Origin: a virus
DNA: 29,823 nucleotides
IMG/VR virus record: IMGVR_UViG_3300032291_001438
Coordinates: 1 to 29,823 of that record
Reading direction: 5' to 3' (one strand)
Of the stretch, positions 1 to 29,823 are shown one piece after another. Below the pieces are notes generated by a model. The model made no database searches. It was not told the DNA's origin and saw nothing but the letters and a program-made list of their open reading frames with translations. A program made the translations under genes and the position numbers. Position 1 is the first letter of the stretch, and every line of letters starts with the position of its first letter.

Positions 1-123
1 ACGCCTACGCCTACGCCTACGCCTACGCCTACACCTACGCCTACGCCAACACCAACGCCTACGCCAACACCAACGCCAACACCAACACCAACACCAACGC
101 CAACACCAACACCAACACCAACG
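1..123. repeat. Left copy of 123-bp terminal direct repeat (circular overlap)
   Basis: Bases 1-123 are identical to 29701-29823. The repeat is made of hexamers ACGCCT, ACACCT, ACGCCA and ACACCA, all coding Thr-Pro. It lies inside one reading frame that starts at 29119 and stops at 405. The most likely meaning is an assembly overlap of a circular or circularly permuted genome, broken inside a low-complexity repeat. A true terminal repeat is possible but less likely. Confidence 0.9.
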
Positions 124-405
124 CCAACGCCTACGCCTACGCCACCGGCAACGTATTCTTTTTTATTAGCATATGATGCTAGTAGTGGACCAGGTGCATG
201 TACAAATTATGGTACATATACTAATATGAGTACTAAATGGAGTTTAAGTAGTTCAATAGGTACTGGTGTATATTTGTATAATACACAATTGGGTGCACAA
301 ACTGGTGATAGTGGTCAATATGTAACTGATGGATATTATTCAAATGGTACAAATTATTGGTACTTTGCAGGTGGTAATACGGGAGATGCAGGTACTGCAT
401 GTTAA
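1..405 (+). CDS. 3' part of (Thr-Pro)-hinge tail fibre/baseplate protein, split by contig ends
   Basis: This is the C-terminal portion of the gene starting at 29119. The frame is open from base 1 and stops with TAA at 403-405. It codes 24 Thr-Pro units (1-144), then a compact C-terminal domain of about 86 residues beginning PPATYSF. That domain is rich in Gly, Ser, Thr, Asn and Tyr, holds one Cys near its start (GPGACTNYG), and ends in GTAC. The WYF and DGYYSNGTNYW segments resemble C-terminal domains of Bacteroidota phage fibre and surface proteins, which may bind host surface structures; that is inference. There is no start codon in this part because the N-terminus lies at the other end of the window. 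Joined length is 328 aa. The exact Thr-Pro count is uncertain because the assembly breaks here. Confidence 0.85.
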   Translation, partial: TPTPTPTPTPTPTPTPTPTPTPTPTPTPTPTPTPTPTPTPTPTPTPTPPATYSFLLAYDASSGPGACTNYGTYTNMSTKWSLSSSIGTGVYLYNTQLGAQTGDSGQYVTDGYYSNGTNYWYFAGGNTGDAGTAC

Positions 406-3115: not shown

Positions 3116-3126
3116 TTGTTAAAATA
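3116..3126 (+). promoter_or_regulatory. Recurrent TTGTTAAA element (candidate late promoter)
   Basis: TTGTTAAAATA stands in the 25-base gap between the tape measure stop and the protease start. Its first base is 13 nt before the ATG. Read as an extended -10 (TGnTAAAAT) it would place the transcript start at or just past the ATG, so a leaderless mRNA or a non-promoter role must be considered. Confidence 0.4.
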
Positions 3127-3128
3127 GT

Positions 3129-4496
3129 ATGATATACGAATTAGTAATAGAAGACGAGAACATAGATGAAGTATTTGCTATCTCATTAGTTAAATCACCA
3201 GCTATGGAAAGCAATTTTATTTACTTTGATAAAGAAGAAATAAAGTTTGCTGAAGTAAATGATGAAAAGAGATTAGTGATGGGTGCAATACTAATACCTG
3301 ATAAAAAGGTATTGCGTATAGATGGTGAAGGAAACCCATATCATGTTTTCTTTAAACCAGAAACTATTAGAAGATTATCTGAAATGTATTTAGAAAATAA
3401 ATACACAGACAAATCTACATTAGAGCACGATGGTGCAGTTGCTGGTGTGAATTTGGTTGAGTCATGGATAGTTGAAGATAGAATGAAAGATAAATCAGCA
3501 GTGTATGGTTTATCACTTCCAGTTGGAACTTGGGCTGGTACATTCCGAATCAACAACGATGAGATATGGAATGATTACGTTAAGGAAGGTAAAGTAAGAG
3601 GATTCTCAATCGAAGGCCTATTTGGACATAACTTAGTATCAGCTGCTAAAGAAGAGATTTGGATGAGCAAAGATATGGATGAGTTAAGTGATGATGAAGC
3701 CAACTTGTTCCTATCAATGATTAAAGATATAGTTAAGTTTCAATCTTATGCTGATTATGGTGATGAGATTAAAAACAATGCTAAAAGAGGAATCGAATTA
3801 AACGAAAAGAATGGTAATAAATGTGCTACTCAAACAGGTAAAGTAAGAGCACAACAATTAGCAAATGGTGAAGCAATATCAGTTGAGACAATTAAAAGAA
3901 TGTATTCTTTTTTGAGTAGAGCTGAAACATACTACGATGAAACTGATGTTAATGCTTGTGGTACAATATCATACCTATTATGGGGTGGTAAATCAGCCCT
4001 AAGTTGGAGTAGAAACAAACTAAAAGAATTGGGATTGTTGGAAGAGCAAGAAGCACAACCATCAATCGCATCTACATACCCTGGCGAAATAGCAAGTGGA
4101 AGTATTGCCCCTGCATTGTTAGCAGAAGGTGGTTGTCCCGAAGCAACGCAGAACATTGGATTAAATCTATTCAATCGACAAACTGCTATCAGGAAAGCAA
4201 AGTATGGACCTTTAAATCCAAACGAACCAAACGAAGAATATTGGAAAGCAAAAGCAGACCAATTTGGAAGTTCAGTTGAAGAAGCTAAGAAAGCACTATG
4301 TGCTAATTGTGTATTCTTCTACCAAACTCCACAAATATTAGATTGTATTGCTGGAGGTATAGAAGCAAAAGGAATGGATGACCCGTATTCGGCAATTGAT
4401 GCTGGTGATTTAGGTTATTGTGAAGCATTCGATTTCAAATGTGCAGCAAGTAGAACGTGTGATGCTTGGGTAGTAGGAGGTCCGATAACTAAATAA
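3129..4496 (+). CDS. XkdF-like prohead protease fused to a MAR-like and a cysteine-rich domain
   Basis: The N-terminal ~190 residues match the XkdF-type putative serine prohead protease pattern: MIYELVIEDE, an AISLVKSPAMESNF segment, STLEHDG, then VESWIVED, DKSAVYG, GTW and GFSIEG. Such proteins process capsid and scaffold proteins inside the prohead. Residues about 215-300 (NAKRGIELNEKNG, then VRAQQLANGEAIS and SYLLWGG) match a module I know fused to phage proteases and head proteins. Residues about 390-455 carry six cysteines: CANCVFF, ILDC, GYCEAFDFKC and RTCDAW. The CxxC...C...C spacing with adjacent aromatics recalls high-potential iron-sulfur proteins. The start is supported because MIYELVI is the usual beginning of this family. 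It is unusual that the protease lies after the tape measure gene, far from the capsid gene at 20964. Confidence 0.75.
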   Translation: MIYELVIEDENIDEVFAISLVKSPAMESNFIYFDKEEIKFAEVNDEKRLVMGAILIPDKKVLRIDGEGNPYHVFFKPETIRRLSEMYLENKYTDKSTLEHDGAVAGVNLVESWIVEDRMKDKSAVYGLSLPVGTWAGTFRINNDEIWNDYVKEGKVRGFSIEGLFGHNLVSAAKEEIWMSKDMDELSDDEANLFLSMIKDIVKFQSYADYGDEIKNNAKRGIELNEKNGNKCATQTGKVRAQQLANGEAISVETIKRMYSFLSRAETYYDETDVNACGTISYLLWGGKSALSWSRNKLKELGLLEEQEAQPSIASTYPGEIASGSIAPALLAEGGCPEATQNIGLNLFNRQTAIRKAKYGPLNPNEPNEEYWKAKADQFGSSVEEAKKALCANCVFFYQTPQILDCIAGGIEAKGMDDPYSAIDAGDLGYCEAFDFKCAASRTCDAWVVGGPITK

Positions 4497-4497
4497 T

Positions 4498-4824
4498 ATG
4501 AGAAACGCATTTTTATCTAACTTATACGAATTCGCAAAAAGAACTGAAATATCTTATCAGGAAATGAAAAAAGTTATTTTAGAAGCTGGTAGAGGTGGTT
4601 TACCTGTTACAATCTATTCAACTAAATTGGATGGTAGTAATAGAGTATTTGATGATAGTATTACCGTTAATGGACCAGGTGGTAAAGCAATGGGAGGTAC
4701 AATATATTGGAAAGCTCCTTACTATTATATGATTGTAAGAGAAGCAGGTGTTGGATTTAGAACAGTTATATTAAGAAATGTAAGTAAATTAAAAGTAGGT
4801 GGAAAAACACTCTACGTTAAGTGA
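4498..4824 (+). CDS. Unknown 108-aa protein at end of late operon
   Basis: It starts one base after the protease stop (TAATATG) and so is translated in the same operon. The first 30 residues are helical (FLSNLYEFAKRTEISYQEMKK), followed by a beta-rich part with Gly-rich turns (GPGGKAMGGTIYW) and a basic C-terminus. There is no signal peptide and no membrane helix. I do not recognise the family; position suggests a minor virion or head-assembly protein. Its last 13 bases overlap the 3' end of the convergent sigma gene, and no terminator separates the two. Confidence 0.7.
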   Translation: MRNAFLSNLYEFAKRTEISYQEMKKVILEAGRGGLPVTIYSTKLDGSNRVFDDSITVNGPGGKAMGGTIYWKAPYYYMIVREAGVGFRTVILRNVSKLKVGGKTLYVK

Positions 4825-5711
4825 TACATTTTTCTATACTTACTTTCGTAAGTTAATACATTACGAATTATATTCTCTTCTATATTAAGCTTTCTAGCCA
4901 TAGCAAGTATTCCATTAGTTCTACTACAACGTGGTTCGTAGTTATCTAATATATATTTTATTATTTCAGCCGATACTTGATTTGATTTTCTAAATTCAGG
5001 CATTTGACCTGTTTCCAAATAATGTTTTTTGGCATTGTAATAGTAGATGTTCAACCTATTATGAGCATCAGTAACAATCTTTTTCCATCTATCAGAATCA
5101 TGCTTCTTATCTAAACCTAATCGTTTAGCTATATCCGCTTGGAAGAACTTACGATTAAAATCTTCTATTTCATCCATCTCATAAAAGTATTCTAATGATA
5201 GATTACCAATCATAATATTAAGTTCACTTGTCATTATCTCTTCCATATTATCTTGCAAATAAGGAATTACCTTTGAAATAAAATCAGAATTAAGTTTTTT
5301 ATTATTCGTATCTGAATTATCTTCTTCCAAATCCATACCATCATCACCCCAGCTATCTATATACAATTCTTTTTTCATATCTTTGTAATTTGCTGCTGAG
5401 TCCTGAAAGTAATGGTTTCTTGCAATTATAGTAAAGTAAGAGAATGCTTTACCTTTTTCACCTTTGAATAGGTGTAATTTATCAAACATAAATACAACAC
5501 AATCCATCATTGCTTCACGTGGTTCTCCCATATAAGATATTTTGTATTTGTTGTAAACAATTTCAGCTATCTTATAGAATGGTTTGTAAATGTGTTGTGA
5601 AAATATTCTATCCCTTTCAGAATAGTCCGTGGACTTGTTATATGCATTTATAGCATCTTCAGTTTCTTGGGTGAAGTATTGTTTTGATTTTGGTTTTCTT
5701 CCTCTTGCCAT
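4812..5711 (-). CDS. T4 gp55-like late-transcription sigma factor
   Basis: This 299-aa protein matches the T4/cyanophage gp55 type of late sigma factor. Residues 40-60 (HIYKPFYKIAEIVYNKYK) and 70-102 hold the core, FMFDKLHLFKGEKGKAFSYF followed by TIIARNHYF. The family signature is a conserved D-K-(x)n-F-KGKAFSYF-I-A-N stretch in sigma region 2. gp55 factors bind host RNA polymerase and recognise a -10 element only, with no classical region 4. The C-terminal ~100 residues are helical and include a possible HTH-like segment (GILAMARKLNIEENIIRNVL). I chose the ATG at 5711 (MARGRKPKSK) over one 51 bases upstream because the upstream extension is not family-like and runs towards the promoter. It is the only minus-strand gene in the genome and would switch on the late genes. 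Confidence 0.78.
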   Translation of the reverse strand: MARGRKPKSKQYFTQETEDAINAYNKSTDYSERDRIFSQHIYKPFYKIAEIVYNKYKISYMGEPREAMMDCVVFMFDKLHLFKGEKGKAFSYFTIIARNHYFQDSAANYKDMKKELYIDSWGDDGMDLEEDNSDTNNKKLNSDFISKVIPYLQDNMEEIMTSELNIMIGNLSLEYFYEMDEIEDFNRKFFQADIAKRLGLDKKHDSDRWKKIVTDAHNRLNIYYYNAKKHYLETGQMPEFRKSNQVSAEIIKYILDNYEPRCSRTNGILAMARKLNIEENIIRNVLTYESKYRKMYHLT

Positions 5712-5759
5712 GTGTAACTTTATAGTATAACAAATAAACATTACTTTGTTATAATGGTA

Positions 5760-5791
5760 CAAAGATACAAAAAATATTTAACAAAAACAAA
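5760..5791 (-). promoter_or_regulatory. Host-type (Bacteroidota) promoter for the sigma gene
   Basis: On the minus strand a TTTG (5788-5791) is followed after 20 bases by TATCTTTG (5760-5767). This matches the Bacteroidota primary sigma consensus TTTG / TAnnTTTG exactly in both boxes. The transcript would start about 40-50 bases upstream of the sigma ATG. Confidence 0.72.
5774..5784 (-). promoter_or_regulatory. TTGTTAAA element inside the sigma gene promoter
   Basis: The minus strand reads TTGTTAAATAT here, matching the late-type element found elsewhere on the plus strand. It lies in the spacer of the host-type promoter and points toward the gp55-like gene, so that gene may be both an early gene and a target of its own product. 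Confidence 0.45.
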
Positions 5792-5793
5792 TT

Positions 5794-7769: not shown

Positions 7770-7869
7770 TACTATTTAGAATGATTATAAATTTCTATAT
7801 TATTGGCATTTTTTTAGCGTTTGTAGTGTCAGCATAATATTTATACATACAACAATAAACAAATATATT

Positions 7870-8943: not shown

Positions 8944-9087
8944 TGCCATTACCTAGTGTACATAGGGGTAGGATAGACGCTGGTTTGTTTGTTCTTACGA
9001 TTATATCTTATATACAGCACCTACCCCGCAAATATTTATTTGTTAGTTGTGTTAAAGGGTGCTGCTTTTAGTGGCATCCTTTTTATT
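8944..9087 (+). ncRNA. Candidate structured small RNA or attenuator leader
   Basis: This gene-free stretch (8915-9150) folds into successive hairpins. GGGGTAGG (8965-8972) pairs with CCTACCCC (9020-9027), enclosing GCTG (8979-8982) with CAGC (9015-9018). CAAAT (9029-9033) pairs with ATTTG (9038-9042). A terminator follows at 9054-9087. The G-rich arm can instead pair with upstream TACCTA (8951-8956), so two exclusive folds exist. It is not a tRNA: no T-loop motif, and the stem-enclosed span is only 63 nt. The element at 8917 could start the transcript. The remaining 63 bases to the HNH start hold only A/T-rich leader. Confidence 0.4.
9054..9087 (+). terminator. Rho-independent terminator upstream of the HNH gene
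   Basis: AAAGGGTGC (9054-9062) pairs with GCATCCTTT (9074-9082), nine pairs with one G-U, with an 11-base loop and a T-rich tail (9080-9087). It ends the 8397-8914 operon or the candidate RNA. Confidence 0.72.
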
Positions 9088-9150
9088 GCTTTAAAAAAAA
9101 TCTAATACTTATAGTAGGGTTCACCCACTAACAAACTAAACAAAAAACAA

Positions 9151-9722: not shown

Positions 9723-9983
9723 ATGGAAGAACTACAACCAAACGTACCTGAATCAAGATATAAACCTTTAAACTTAGAAGAGTTTCAGGAATTAAAACTA
9801 AACTTACAAGGAGTAGGAACACACCTACCTACACACTTAGCAGGATATATGTGGGCAAAGTGTAACGCAATCAGAGGAGAAAGAACTGCACAACCATGCA
9901 CTTGCCAATCATCAGGTGGATTATGGATGGCATGTATCAATGACTTAAATAAATTTGTAAAGGATAAAGAGAATGCTCAATAG
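9723..9983 (+). CDS. 86-aa Cys-motif protein of Bacteroidota phages
   Basis: It starts one base after the preceding stop. The C-terminal half has MWAKCNAIRG, then QPCTCQSSGGLWMACINDLN, a C...PCxC-xSSG-xLW pattern I associate with small conserved proteins in this phage group. The four cysteines suggest metal binding or DNA contact, which is inference. Its end overlaps the sigma-like gene by 11 bases, in a tight operon with it. Confidence 0.62.
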   Translation: MEELQPNVPESRYKPLNLEEFQELKLNLQGVGTHLPTHLAGYMWAKCNAIRGERTAQPCTCQSSGGLWMACINDLNKFVKDKENAQ

Positions 9984-10515
9984 TGGTGATGAAAATATAA
10001 GAAGATTAGAAAATCTATATAAGCAATCACACAAATGGTTGATGGCAGTTTCATATAACACATCAAAGAATAAAGAAATATCTGAAGAGTTAGTATCGGA
10101 CTTGTATCTTTACCTTGCTGAAAGAGTTAATCCAAATCTATGGTGGGGTAACGATTCATTTAATTTAATGTACTGCCACTCATTCATTAAGACCCGTTTC
10201 ATAAACAAAGTAAAAGTTCTTAATCGTATGTGTACCATATCTCCTCACTACGATACGATTGAAGAAGAATACGATGAAGAGTTCGATAAGAGATTAGAAA
10301 CCGCTTACGATGGAGTTATTGAAGAATTAAAGGCAATGGAGAGAACGAAGTTGTGGCCGGCATCTAAACTTTATCAAATGTATGTGTTCACCGAAGGTAT
10401 GACGTTGGACAAGCTAAGTAATGAAATCCATATCAGTAAGAGTACATCATTCTTAAATGTAAAGAAAGCAAAGAAGCATCTAAGAGAAACAATACAAAAC
10501 CCATTTAAAGACTAA
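9973..10515 (+). CDS. Sigma-70-like regulator (small phage sigma-like protein)
   Basis: This 180-aa protein has the layout of a small sigma or sigma-like factor. A region-2-like helical block covers residues about 10-85 (SEELVSDLYLYLAERVNPNL, MYCHSFIKTRFINKV). A C-terminal helix-turn-helix block like sigma region 4 follows (residues about 130-175: LYQMYVFTEGMTLDKLSNEI, HISKSTSFLNVKKAKKHL). An acidic linker (EEEYDEEFDKR) joins them. It could direct middle or late transcription or regulate packaging/terminase genes downstream. It is distinct from the gp55-like factor on the minus strand. It is followed after one base by the methyltransferase gene. Confidence 0.65.
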   Translation: MLNSGDENIRRLENLYKQSHKWLMAVSYNTSKNKEISEELVSDLYLYLAERVNPNLWWGNDSFNLMYCHSFIKTRFINKVKVLNRMCTISPHYDTIEEEYDEEFDKRLETAYDGVIEELKAMERTKLWPASKLYQMYVFTEGMTLDKLSNEIHISKSTSFLNVKKAKKHLRETIQNPFKD

Positions 10516-13741: not shown

Positions 13742-13752
13742 TTGTTAAAGTA
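13742..13752 (+). promoter_or_regulatory. TTGTTAAA element before 13774
   Basis: TTGTTAAAGTA is 32 nt before the ATG of the small Cys protein, which heads the fibre gene cluster. It stands in the 56-base gap after the tail chaperone genes. Confidence 0.45.
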
Positions 13753-14040: not shown

Positions 14041-17000
14041 ATGTCTCAATTAAACAAAACGCAGTTAGAACAAGAAAACCAAACTAACTTCCCAAATAAC
14101 AATACAGGTTTTATAACTCCTACTAGACTAAGAGAGTTTAATACTGATATGATTGACTCAATGACAACTGAAGGTCAATTCAATTCTGCTTCATCATCAT
14201 TAAGTGCATCAATAGCAATGCTTGAATTACAAGTAGATGCATTAGTATTATCAGGTAGTGGTGTTGTAATATTAGATGAAGGTGTATCACAGGGCTCAGC
14301 TACAACATTAAACTTTGTTGGACCTACTATACAAGTAAGTGTAACAGGTTCACAAGCTAACATATATGCTAACACATCTGGATTAGCAACAACTGGTTCT
14401 AATACATTTAGAGGTGGACAACAAATAAGTGGAAGTAGTGGAGTTACGGGTTCATTCAGTATAACAGGTAGTTTAATAATAAATGGAACATCATATGCAT
14501 CAGCAACAAGTGGAACATCCGGCACCGGAGGTACATCAGGTACGTCTGGGACTAGTGGAACGAATGGAACGGCTGGAACAGGCGGTTCATCAGGTTCGTC
14601 TGGAACAAGTGGAACTTCGGGAAGCAGTGGTTCGTCTGGTTCATCAGGTTCAAGCGGTTCAAGTGGAACTTCAGGAACTAGTGGAACATCAGGTACAAAC
14701 GGTACGGCTGGTAGTGGAGGTTCATCAGGAACTTCAGGCACTTCGGGCACAAGCGGAACATCTGGATTAGATGGTTCGCAAGGTGTAAGTGGAACTGCGG
14801 GAAGCAGTGGTTCTTCTGGAAGTTCAGGTTCATCTGGTTCAAGCGGTACATCGGGTACTTCTGGAACAAGCGGAACATCTGGTTCTAGTGGAAGTAGTGG
14901 TTCATCAGGTTTGTCTGGAACTGCTGGTACATCTGGTACATCTTTTCTATGGAGAGGAGATTGGAATAGTGGAACATCTTATAATATAAATGATGTAGTA
15001 TCATATAATGGTAGTTCATACATAGCAATAAATGGAGTTGGTAATACAAACCAAAATCCAGCAATACAAACTGCGTTTTGGTCATTAGTAGCATTAGCAG
15101 GAACAAACGGAACTGCTGGTAGTGGTGGTTTATCAGGTACTTCTGGAACAAGCGGAACATCTGGTGTTTCTGGTTCTTCAGGCTCATCTGGTTCATCAGG
15201 AAGTAGTGGAAGCAGTGGAAGTAGTGGAACATCAGGCACTAGTGGAGTTGATGGAACAGGCGGAAGTTCTGGAAGTTCTGGATTAAATGGAACATCTGGC
15301 ACAAGCGGTACATCAGGTACTTCTGGTAGTAGTGGTTCAAGCGGAAGCAGTGGAAGTAGTGGAACATCTGGTAGTTCAGGTATAAACGGAACATCGGGTA
15401 CATCGGGAGCAAGTGGTGATTTATATCGTACAACTTCAGTAACTTCATTTACATTAGGTAACGCAGGAACAATAACAGTAGGTACTGGATTAGCATATTC
15501 AGTAGCACAATCAATAATAATAGTATATGATGCTAACAACTTCCAAGAGTGTGAGGTAATAACTTACAATAGTGGAACGGGAGCATTACAATTTGCTGCA
15601 CCAACTAGAACTGTTGGTAGTGGCACATATTCAGCATGGACTGTAAACTTAGATGGTGCAAGTGGTGGAGATGGTTCTTCGGGTACTTCTGGTACATCTG
15701 GATTAACTGGAACTTCTGGTGTTAATGGTTCATCTGGTTCATCAGGAAGTAGTGGAACAAGCGGCACTTCTGGTACAAGCGGAACTTCTGGTTCTTCTGG
15801 TTCAAGTGGTAGCAGCGGTTCAAGCGGTAGTAGTGGAACATCTGGTACTTCTGGTAGCTCATTTACTTGGAGAGGACAATGGAACTCAATTGACATTTAT
15901 GTAGTAAACGATGTAGTAGAATATGATGGTAGCTCTTATATATGTGTAGTAGGTAATACTGATGAAGACCCAATAGCATATCCAGACAAATGGGATTTAG
16001 TAGCTCAAGCAGGAACAAATGGAACTGCTGGTTCAAGCGGTACTTCGGGCAGTTCAGGTTCTTCTGGAACATCAGGAACTTCTGGTACTTCTGGTACATC
16101 GGGAACATCAGGTATAAATGGTACAAATGGAAGTAGTGGTACTTCGGGTACATCTGGGACTAGTGGAAGTAGTGGTACTTCGGGCACTTCTGGTACAAGC
16201 GGTGTAAATGGAGTAGCAGGTAGTAGTGGGACATCAGGTACTTCTGGTACTTCTGGAATCAATGGTGTAGCTGGTAGCAGTGGAACTTCTGGAACAAGCG
16301 GTACATCTGGTACAAGTGGAAGTAGTGGAGCAAATGGTTCATCCGGTAGTAGTGGAACATCTGGTACTTCAGGTTCAAGTGGAATAAATGGAGTAGCTGG
16401 AAGTAGTGGAACATCAGGAACAAGCGGTGTAAACGGACTTGCTGGAAGTAGTGGTTCATCAGGTACTTCTGGAACATCAGGAGCAACAACAATATCAACA
16501 ATAGCTGATGATGGAATTGTACAGGGTACTGCAACATTCTTAAACTTTAGTGGAAGTGGTGTTACTGCAACTGTAAATTCAAACACAGCATCTATTATAA
16601 TATCTGGTGGTGGTGGAAGTGGAGCAGGATTCCCATTCTCTGGTTCTGCTGAAATAACAGGTTCTTTAATTGTAACTGGTAGTTACAGAAGTTTAGTTGT
16701 ATCAACATCAATAGCTTCAAATACATCATCAATAGATTTATCAAAAGGTAATTATTTTACTGCTGGTGTTAGTGGAAGTACATTCTTTAATTTCCAAAAT
16801 GCTAAAGCTGGTCAAACTGCTGAAATAATTGTGACTACATTAACAAATGGGGCATTAGCAACATTTGATACTCAATCTGTGTACTTTGCAGATGCTACAT
16901 TTTATGGACCAACTGTACCATCTCAATCAATAGATTTATTAAATGTATTCGTAAAAGATAACAATAATATTTTAATAGTACCAGATAAAAACTTTATAAA

Positions 17001-17856
17001 ATATCAAGTTAGTGAAGCTGTAACTGCATCTTATTTAGTAGTAGCAGGTGGAGGAGCTGGAGCTTATACTGGATTTAATGGTGGACGTAGTGGAGGTGGT
17101 GGTGCTGGTGGATATCGTAATTCATTTGGTACTGAATATTCAGGTGGAAATAGTGCAACTGAAACACCATTAACAATTGCTTTAGGAACTTCTTATACTG
17201 TAACTGTTGGGGCAGGTGGAACTTTAAGAGGGTCTGGTTCATTATCTCAATTTAGTTCAGTTATATCAACCGGAGGTGGTGGGGGTGGTATTATGGATAA
17301 TGTTGGTGGAGCTGCTGGAGCAGGAGGAAGTGGTGGTGGAGCTGGTGCTAATGGTTCTGGTGGAAGTACATTAGCAGGTGGTTTAGGTATTTCTACTCAA
17401 GGATTTAATGGAGGTACTACTGCAGCTGGTTCTGATGTTGCTGGTTCTGGTGGAGGTGGTGCTGGAGCAGTTGGTGGAAATGGAGCTAGTGCAGTTGGTG
17501 GAGCTGGTGGAACCGGATTAGCATCATCAATCACAGGCACTTCTGTAACTAGAGCTGGTGGTGGTGGTGCATATGGTGGTAATAGTGGTGGAGCTGGAGG
17601 AGATGGTGGTGGTGGAGCTGGAGGAACTGGTGGTGGAACTGCGGTAGCAGGTACTGCAAATACTGGAGGTGGTTCAGGTGGTGAATCTTCTGGAAATGGT
17701 GAACCTGGCGGTAGTGGTGTAGTAATCATTAGATTTCCAGCAACATTAACAGCAACATTCACTGGAGGTGTAACACAAACAACATCAACTATTGGATTAG
17801 CAAAAGTTGCTACTATAACTGCAGCTGGTGTAAGTGATACTGTAACATTTAGTTAA
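14041..17856 (+). CDS. Collagen-like tail fibre with binding modules and Gly-rich C-terminus
   Basis: This 1271-aa protein is the largest in the genome. Residues 1-150 form a beta-rich head with a DEGVSQGSATTLNFVG module (79-110). Residues about 157-300, 360-455, 545-600 and 660-812 are collagen-like Gly-X-Y repeats, nearly all GTSG, GSSG and GTNG. Three globular inserts interrupt them: two paralogous modules (about 301-355 and 606-660; WRGDWNSGTSYNINDVVSYN and WRGQWNSIDIYVVNDVVEYD) resembling carbohydrate-binding domains of the CBM5/12 type, and a beta domain at 458-545. Residues 823-855 repeat the head module (DDGIVQGTATFLNFSG). Residues about 998-1240 are a Gly-rich domain starting YLVVAGGGAG. 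I infer a trimeric fibre or capsid appendage that binds host glycans. Confidence 0.75.
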   Translation: MSQLNKTQLEQENQTNFPNNNTGFITPTRLREFNTDMIDSMTTEGQFNSASSSLSASIAMLELQVDALVLSGSGVVILDEGVSQGSATTLNFVGPTIQVSVTGSQANIYANTSGLATTGSNTFRGGQQISGSSGVTGSFSITGSLIINGTSYASATSGTSGTGGTSGTSGTSGTNGTAGTGGSSGSSGTSGTSGSSGSSGSSGSSGSSGTSGTSGTSGTNGTAGSGGSSGTSGTSGTSGTSGLDGSQGVSGTAGSSGSSGSSGSSGSSGTSGTSGTSGTSGSSGSSGSSGLSGTAGTSGTSFLWRGDWNSGTSYNINDVVSYNGSSYIAINGVGNTNQNPAIQTAFWSLVALAGTNGTAGSGGLSGTSGTSGTSGVSGSSGSSGSSGSSGSSGSSGTSGTSGVDGTGGSSGSSGLNGTSGTSGTSGTSGSSGSSGSSGSSGTSGSSGINGTSGTSGASGDLYRTTSVTSFTLGNAGTITVGTGLAYSVAQSIIIVYDANNFQECEVITYNSGTGALQFAAPTRTVGSGTYSAWTVNLDGASGGDGSSGTSGTSGLTGTSGVNGSSGSSGSSGTSGTSGTSGTSGSSGSSGSSGSSGSSGTSGTSGSSFTWRGQWNSIDIYVVNDVVEYDGSSYICVVGNTDEDPIAYPDKWDLVAQAGTNGTAGSSGTSGSSGSSGTSGTSGTSGTSGTSGINGTNGSSGTSGTSGTSGSSGTSGTSGTSGVNGVAGSSGTSGTSGTSGINGVAGSSGTSGTSGTSGTSGSSGANGSSGSSGTSGTSGSSGINGVAGSSGTSGTSGVNGLAGSSGSSGTSGTSGATTISTIADDGIVQGTATFLNFSGSGVTATVNSNTASIIISGGGGSGAGFPFSGSAEITGSLIVTGSYRSLVVSTSIASNTSSIDLSKGNYFTAGVSGSTFFNFQNAKAGQTAEIIVTTLTNGALATFDTQSVYFADATFYGPTVPSQSIDLLNVFVKDNNNILIVPDKNFIKYQVSEAVTASYLVVAGGGAGAYTGFNGGRSGGGGAGGYRNSFGTEYSGGNSATETPLTIALGTSYTVTVGAGGTLRGSGSLSQFSSVISTGGGGGGIMDNVGGAAGAGGSGGGAGANGSGGSTLAGGLGISTQGFNGGTTAAGSDVAGSGGGGAGAVGGNGASAVGGAGGTGLASSITGTSVTRAGGGGAYGGNSGGAGGDGGGGAGGTGGGTAVAGTANTGGGSGGESSGNGEPGGSGVVIIRFPATLTATFTGGVTQTTSTIGLAKVATITAAGVSDTVTFS
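14509..16485 (+). repeat. Collagen-like minisatellite region
   Basis: The DNA is a set of nine-base (three-codon) near-repeats built from GGA/GGT, AGT/TCA/TCT/ACA and the like, interrupted by three unique stretches (14938-15110, 15413-15670 and 15853-16015). The synonymous codons vary heavily, which limits recombination between copies. The tract invites length variation, and its exact length from short reads deserves caution. Confidence 0.8.
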
Positions 17857-18304: not shown

Positions 18305-18315
18305 TTGTTAAATAA
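18305..18315 (+). promoter_or_regulatory. TTGTTAAA element before 18330
   Basis: TTGTTAAATAA is 25 nt before the ATG of the spike-base-like gene. The whole leader is nearly identical to that at 20228, with both followed by A-rich AAATAAA runs. Confidence 0.45.
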
Positions 18316-20227: not shown

Positions 20228-20238
20228 TTGTTAAATAA
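20228..20238 (+). promoter_or_regulatory. TTGTTAAA element before the capsid operon
   Basis: TTGTTAAATAA lies 27 nt before the scaffold ATG, in a 53-base gap. It would start the transcript for scaffold and major capsid protein, which the hairpin at 21936 may attenuate. Confidence 0.5.
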
Positions 20239-22624: not shown

Positions 22625-22635
22625 TTGTTAAATAT
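22625..22635 (+). promoter_or_regulatory. TTGTTAAA element before the portal operon
   Basis: TTGTTAAATAT lies 37 nt before the ATG at 22662, directly after the strong terminator. This pairing of a terminator with the element supports its role as a new transcript start. Confidence 0.55.
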
Positions 22636-25792: not shown

Positions 25793-25803
25793 TTGTTAAA
25801 GTA
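25793..25803 (+). promoter_or_regulatory. TTGTTAAA element before the distal tail operon
   Basis: TTGTTAAAGTA lies 31 nt before the ATG at 25824, in a 55-base gap. It would begin the transcript for the distal tail genes running across the contig join. Confidence 0.5.
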
Positions 25804-29118: not shown

Positions 29119-29823
29119 ATGGCAACTAAACAAAAAATATACATACCAACTTATATCTCCAGCGTAACATATCAACCTGCTAGAGTTCAACCACGTATCC
29201 TATTTTACAACTCAACTAAAAATTGTGAAACATATTACATAGCATCAGGTTCATCAGTTCAAGCACAAGAATCATTTCCATATTTTGACAATTATAGTGG
29301 AATTAATACAACATCTGATTCATTATCACTTTTATTTAATAATGAGGATGCACCATATGGTGTAATTCCATCTCAATCTTTGTACACAACTTATTGGGAA
29401 AAGTATGTTGATTTATTATACAATCCTAGAACTCGTTTATTTAACGCATCAGCGATTATTCCATTAGCAAAGTACTTTGAGATGGAATTAAATGATATCG
29501 TTCAATGGAGAGGAAATACATACCATTTAAGGGCAATTAACGATTACAATCTAAGTACAGGTGAATGTAGTATTCAATTATTAGGACCTATATTGGAAGG
29601 TGCATTATTTCCAGAGGAGTTTGACCCAACTCCTCCTGCACCACCAGTTCCTCCTAGTCCTCCAGCTCCTCCTAGTCCACCATCGCCAACACCAACGCCT
29701 ACGCCTACGCCTACGCCTACGCCTACGCCTACACCTACGCCTACGCCAACACCAACGCCTACGCCAACACCAACGCCAACACCAACACCAACACCAACGC
29801 CAACACCAACACCAACACCAACG
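29119..29823 (+). CDS. 5' part of (Thr-Pro)-hinge tail fibre/baseplate protein, continues at position 1
   Basis: The ATG at 29119 lies six bases after the hub stop. Residues 1-172 form an N-terminal domain (MATKQKIYIPTYISSVTYQP; LYNPRTRLFNASAIIPLAKY; FEMELNDIVQWRGNTYHLRA; DYNLSTGECSIQLLGPIL) of the kind that closes Bacteroidota hub proteins (a beta domain with W-x-x-x-Y-x-L-xxI ... L-xxP). A Pro-rich linker (PPAPPVPPSPPAPPSPP) leads to Thr-Pro repeats from residue 191, running into the contig end with no stop. Continuing at base 1 gives (TP)26 in total, a C-terminal domain and a stop at 405 (328 aa). The overlap 29701-29823 repeats 1-123 and must be counted once. It may carry the receptor-binding domain on a stiff stalk. 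Confidence 0.8.
   Translation, partial: MATKQKIYIPTYISSVTYQPARVQPRILFYNSTKNCETYYIASGSSVQAQESFPYFDNYSGINTTSDSLSLLFNNEDAPYGVIPSQSLYTTYWEKYVDLLYNPRTRLFNASAIIPLAKYFEMELNDIVQWRGNTYHLRAINDYNLSTGECSIQLLGPILEGALFPEEFDPTPPAPPVPPSPPAPPSPPSPTPTPTPTPTPTPTPTPTPTPTPTPTPTPTPTPTPTPTPTPTPTPT
29701..29823. repeat. Right copy of 123-bp terminal direct repeat
   Basis: It is identical to bases 1-123. It begins exactly at a codon boundary of the gene at 29119 (582 bases from its ATG), so joining 29700 to 1 keeps the frame. The unique genome length would be 29,700 bases. Confidence 0.9.

Follow-up and report, generated by a model that had tools for sequence, protein, structure and literature searches.

We propose that positions 5712 to 5793 of the window (the whole 29,823-base virus record analyzed here) form a two-input control region in front of a gp55-like sigma factor gene. 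Through this region, the host sigma would switch on the gp55-like factor, the gp55-like factor would switch on a second, ECF-like sigma factor (sig2), and sig2 would serve both the late genes and the gp55-like gene itself; we put the probability of this sequence-based reading at about one half. The sequence shows the gene, its strand, promoters of both types with their conservation and distribution over genes, and two sigma folds; we infer factor-motif recognition, timing, feedback, and occlusion. The wider picture is offered more tentatively, namely, a ~30 kb phage family with two sigma factors of different families (gp55-like and ECF-like) that activate each other, the circuit being started from one host-type promoter, with the reciprocal element packed together with a facing late promoter into ~80 bp. 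We take the host to belong to the Bacteroidota, based on the promoter type and on kinship to Nonlabens and Flavobacterium phages. The gene order is kept in every relative covering the locus, running from an XkdF-type protease gene through the opposite-strand sigma gene and g5963 to the later ECF-like gene and terL.

The gp55-like gene (4812 to 5711, minus strand) encodes a protein of 299 residues beginning with MARGRKPK. Its start codon is the ATG at 5711, which is homologous to the start in relatives, and its stop is located at 4812; with the in-frame TTG at 5762 as the start, the reading frame would enter the promoter. The first-pass annotation had described this gene as the only one on the minus strand, and it is indeed the sole long minus-strand open reading frame (ORF) that is not buried inside a plus-strand gene; in every relative holding the gene, it is opposite in strand to the remaining genes. 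The gp55-like identity given to it earlier is backed by fold comparison. A structure model prepared from 12 aligned family sequences (mean pLDDT 73) matched phage sigma factors and gp55s in BFVD and sigma factors in the PDB, and the best solved structure after realignment was T4 gp55 (7d7c_F; Z 10.2, rmsd 3.2, 115 residues). Z values of this size are common among helical proteins, and the Foldseek PDB match had an E value of only 0.013, so the consistency of the sigma list outweighs the single values. As modeled, the protein has a sigma-70 domain 2 fold and is gp55-like. PHROG, Pfam, and PDB sequence searches yielded no direct assignment for the window protein, and the hints from sequence families are weak (phrog_234 for one relative, E 0.015; the immuto homologue, E 0.008). 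The versions in small phages have an extra C-terminal HTH-like part (weak HTH match), which is missing from large-phage homologues. In the large phages (L189 to L263), the homologue is preceded by a small ORF. The N terminus of its product resembles a membrane segment, it carries a DDE(V/T)G motif, and it gave no convincing family match, so we do not claim it as gp33.

The host-type promoter proposed by the first-pass annotation at complement 5760 to 5791 stands. It reads TTTG-N20-TATCTTTG on the minus strand, with the –33 TTTG at 5788 to 5791 and the –7 TATCTTTG at 5760 to 5767, in agreement with the Bacteroidota primary-sigma consensus (TTTG / TAnnTTTG, ~20 nt spacing). The promoter consensus and a 4- to 5-nt spacing to the transcription start are known from F. 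johnsoniae (PMC6847099), which places the predicted start at ~5754 to 5755. A single copy proves nothing because 1.4 chance occurrences of the pattern are expected per window; it is conserved by pattern in relatives, with matches at 23 of 24 loci, the window included (one of the 23, in G007, is probably spurious), and at 18 of 19 nonredundant loci, where chance would give 4% per locus.

The strongest upstream motif of the window family is TTGTTAWA, which precedes structural genes. Starting from no prior motif, TTGTTAAA came first in enrichment among the 8-mers in front of 1,586 ORFs from 158 loci (239 vs 3.6 expected), although such k-mer and profile counts, drawn from related sequences, show conservation and not independent events. 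Nearly all copies are in sense (247 vs 27), mostly 20 to 44 nt ahead of the start codon. Applied to the T4 late region as a control, the k-mer method recovers TATAAATA. A second conserved block (~T-N-A-C-T-A-T-A-A) lies 13 to 21 nt further upstream, indicating that the late promoter is bipartite. The element marks the first genes of structural operons; it was found at 0 of 81 capsid, 0 of 79 terL, and 0 of 45 portal starts, these genes coming later in their operons. On the plus strand of the window, it is located before genes 13774 (13742 to 13749), 18330 (18305 to 18312; present in 60/60 loci), 20255, which is directly upstream of the putative major capsid gene (20228 to 20235; 72/77 loci), 22662, which is directly upstream of the portal gene (22625 to 22632; 61/63 loci), and 25824 (25793 to 25800). 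A further copy, TTGTTAAA at 3116 to 3123 (plus strand), precedes the XkdF-type head protease gene (3129 to 4496; Peptidase_S78_2, E 3.8e-14), with 13 nt between it and the ATG; this spacing (3116 to 3129) is kept in most relatives, suggesting a leaderless protease transcript. A TATAAATA sequence upstream of the capsid gene was rejected as a promoter, being the coding end of the preceding gene. When a late profile was built without the sigma gene and g5963, it ranked six structural sites of the window first and an element in front of the sigma gene (5733, minus strand) seventh.

The second sigma factor gene, sig2 (9973 to 10515, plus strand), is located upstream of terS/terL. ECF structures, among them 6dv9_F (E 1.4e-4), 9m9e_F, and 6kop_F, top its fold search, and the modeled protein appears as an ECF sigma with regions 2 and 4 only. 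Sigma70_r2 and r4 matches are weak and come from relatives; sig2 homologues occur in most of the terL loci, and profile comparison detected no similarity between the gp55-like and ECF-like proteins. Eight large phages have a gp55-like factor (immuto, Mel-JY01, and six metagenomic records). In all eight, TATTTATA is enriched upstream of genes (20 vs 0.24 and 14 vs 0.27 among them), and the motif is not fully specific, since the T4 control also shows it (5 in sense). A TATTTATA profile trained on these large phages alone finds same-strand sites upstream of genes leading to sig2 in most genomes of the window family; these sites lie ahead of the HNH gene and the gene in the DUF6291 position or elsewhere in that upstream stretch. 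One such site in the window, a putative gp55-like promoter of 10.6 bits, lies 32 nt before the DUF6291 gene (7838 to 7845, plus strand). Before the HNH gene preceding sig2, TATTTATA is present in 19 of 46 loci; the copy directly before this HNH-sig2 operon is weak in G003 and in the window, where it reads TACTTATA (9106 to 9113, plus strand), and TATTTATT at 9033 is a profile-scored alternative. In the window (7811 to 7845) and related loci, the TATTTATA before the DUF6291-type gene often has GTTTG ~20 nt upstream; the gp55-like factor of the small phages, which has the additional C-terminal part, might use this as a –35-like block.

The element in front of the sigma gene, TTGTTATACTATAAAG (5718 to 5733, minus strand), is a proximal phage promoter element 22 nt before the ATG. 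It scores 14.8 bits, a value for which 0.1 equally good sites are expected by chance in the window, and an element of this type lies 15 to 32 nt before the sigma start in 23 of 24 loci (chance, 1.7%). The first-pass annotation overlooked it; its claim that a late element and a host promoter are combined at one gene holds, since a phage-type late element is conserved there, but for another copy than the one it named. The copy named, TTGTTAAATAT, is present inside the promoter spacer (5774 to 5784, minus strand), includes an exact TTGTTAAATA, and belongs to 28 bp identical in the nearest sister, L001. This sequence is lineage specific: apart from L001 and the doubtful G007 match, the spacers of relatives hold different AT-rich sequence. 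It scores 2.5 bits by the family-wide late profile (33rd in the window, with ~17 equally good sites expected in a shuffled window), lies 73 nt from the ATG, and, allowing up to 2 mismatches, is no commoner in the window than in shuffles. On conservation and profile score, we rejected it as the working late element, a role that we regard as very improbable; it is probably mere AT-rich promoter spacer, and AT-rich blocks at –18 and –28 are usual in F. johnsoniae promoters (PMC6847099).

A facing element, TTGTTATA (5746 to 5753, plus strand; 10.7 bits, eleventh in the window), points towards g5794/g5963. Given the predicted start, it covers ~+2 to +9 of the host-type transcript. The facing copy is found in most relatives, and among the records listed, g5963 has an element at –44 to –58. 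The two elements form a pair of arms (left TATAACAA, right TTGTTATA), fully complementary in 15 of 21 loci, which could suggest that they act as an operator, or as a hairpin in the RNA of the sigma leader, instead of as promoters. The gap between the arms, however, is 7, 12, 15, or 25 nt; variable positions change on a single arm more often than on both; either arm may be of the TTGTTAAA type while the other is not; and the right arm retains late-type downstream sequence and its distance to the ATG. The folding of the leader is unremarkable (mean z about –0.9). Because the arms change independently and the gap varies, we rejected a hairpin or fixed operator, which is an improbable explanation, and two facing promoters fit better. 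Two features weigh against the circuit favored below: a well-placed –35-like block is missing from the proximal element, and its distance to the facing arm varies.

Which factor reads TTGTTAWA decides whether the gp55-like factor boosts its own gene late through the proximal element, a reading close to that of the first-pass annotation, which had placed the self-activating element in the spacer. The element is there, before the sigma gene in 23 of 24 loci, its TTGTTAAATA resembles the T4 late TATAAATA, the extra C-terminal HTH-like part could read a –35-like block, and a late sigma that feeds back via a late promoter has been proposed for phage 7-11 (PMC8948821). Recognition by the factor itself is nevertheless doubtful, since the eight large phages with a gp55-like factor show no clear enrichment of TTGTTAWA while carrying TATTTATA, and a similar bipartite promoter of the GTTAATA type occurs in phages without a detectable gp55-like factor. 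These phages, P12024S and its relatives, have an ECF-like factor (hhalign, 90% for the P12024S protein), and no gp55-like gene was detected in them; conversely, searches in large phages gave no sig2. The promoter of P12024S and its relatives is AAAAC-N17-CGTTAATA, mostly 12 to 15 nt before start codons. In the P12024-type loci L265, L303, and L305 to L309, this promoter is rigid and usually lies 12 nt before the ATG, so their transcripts would be leaderless or nearly so. The window family combines the two factors and the two motifs. Based on this co-occurrence in related groups, the ECF-like factor is apparently the reader of TTGTTAWA, and true self-activation is unlikely. Since phages with a gp55-like but no detectable ECF-like factor show TATTTATA, and those with an ECF-like but no detectable gp55-like factor the bipartite GTTAATA type, the "late sigma" may be a "middle sigma."

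In the circuit that we favor, host RNA polymerase with its primary sigma would start early at TTTG-N20-TATCTTTG and yield the gp55-like factor, which would direct polymerase to the TATTTATA promoters of middle genes, including the operons leading to sig2. The sig2 protein would in turn bring polymerase to the bipartite TTGTTAWA promoters that precede structural genes, as well as to the TTGTTATA elements of this region, of which one lies 22 nt ahead of the sigma gene and the other faces towards g5963. From these two steps, it follows that the gp55-like and ECF-like factors would each turn the other on in a mutual feedback loop. The position of the facing element further suggests competition between overlapping promoters; polymerase bound there would cover the host-type transcript start and could shut it off.

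The gp55-like factor shares with T4 gp55 the sigma domain 2 fold and, in related large phages, a single short –10-type motif; it differs in that the motif is TATTTATA instead of the TATAAATA of T4, in the extra C-terminal part in small phages, and in probably controlling middle genes. Sigma cascades are classic, as in SPO1, where gp28 is followed by gp33/gp34. The order of host sigma, middle phage sigma, and late phage sigma is the same in SPO1-type cascades, whereas other protein families, siphophage genomes of ~30 kb, and an apparent loop back from late to middle distinguish the present case. Nonlabens phage P12024S has a related putative capsid, an ECF-like sigma near terL, and a bipartite late-gene promoter but differs in its motif and in the gp55-like gene, which was not detected. 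That a late sigma feeds back on its own gene has already been proposed for gp47 of phage 7-11 (phiEco32 group), which is expressed early from host promoters and then, as proposed, through positive feedback via a phage promoter (PMC8948821). In that phage, the early transcripts arrive by read-through and the factor recognizes a promoter of its own, whereas here the sigma gene has a host-type promoter immediately in front of it and the evidence points to a second sigma. The literature searched contained neither this layout for Bacteroidota phages nor, in ~30 kb phages, a gp55-like and ECF-like pair in which one gene is preceded by a host-type promoter together with the element of the other factor; earlier descriptions may nevertheless exist. 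For a group of uncultured phages of the Bacteroidota, whose relatives are numerous in metagenomes, the analysis provides predicted promoter classes and their probable reading factors, and the known range of gp55-type sigma factors now reaches past large T4-like phages. The proposed circuit is simple and can be tested: two viral sigma factors of different kinds would reinforce each other, as opposed to a one-way cascade or plain self-activation.

Both ends of the window (1 to 405 and 29119 to 29823) lie within a (PT)n repeat coding frame; the record therefore probably represents a genome, circular or permuted, whose break point fell within a low-complexity repeat. Positions 14041 to 17856 encode a probable fiber, a protein of 1271 residues that contains long TSG/SSG repeats.
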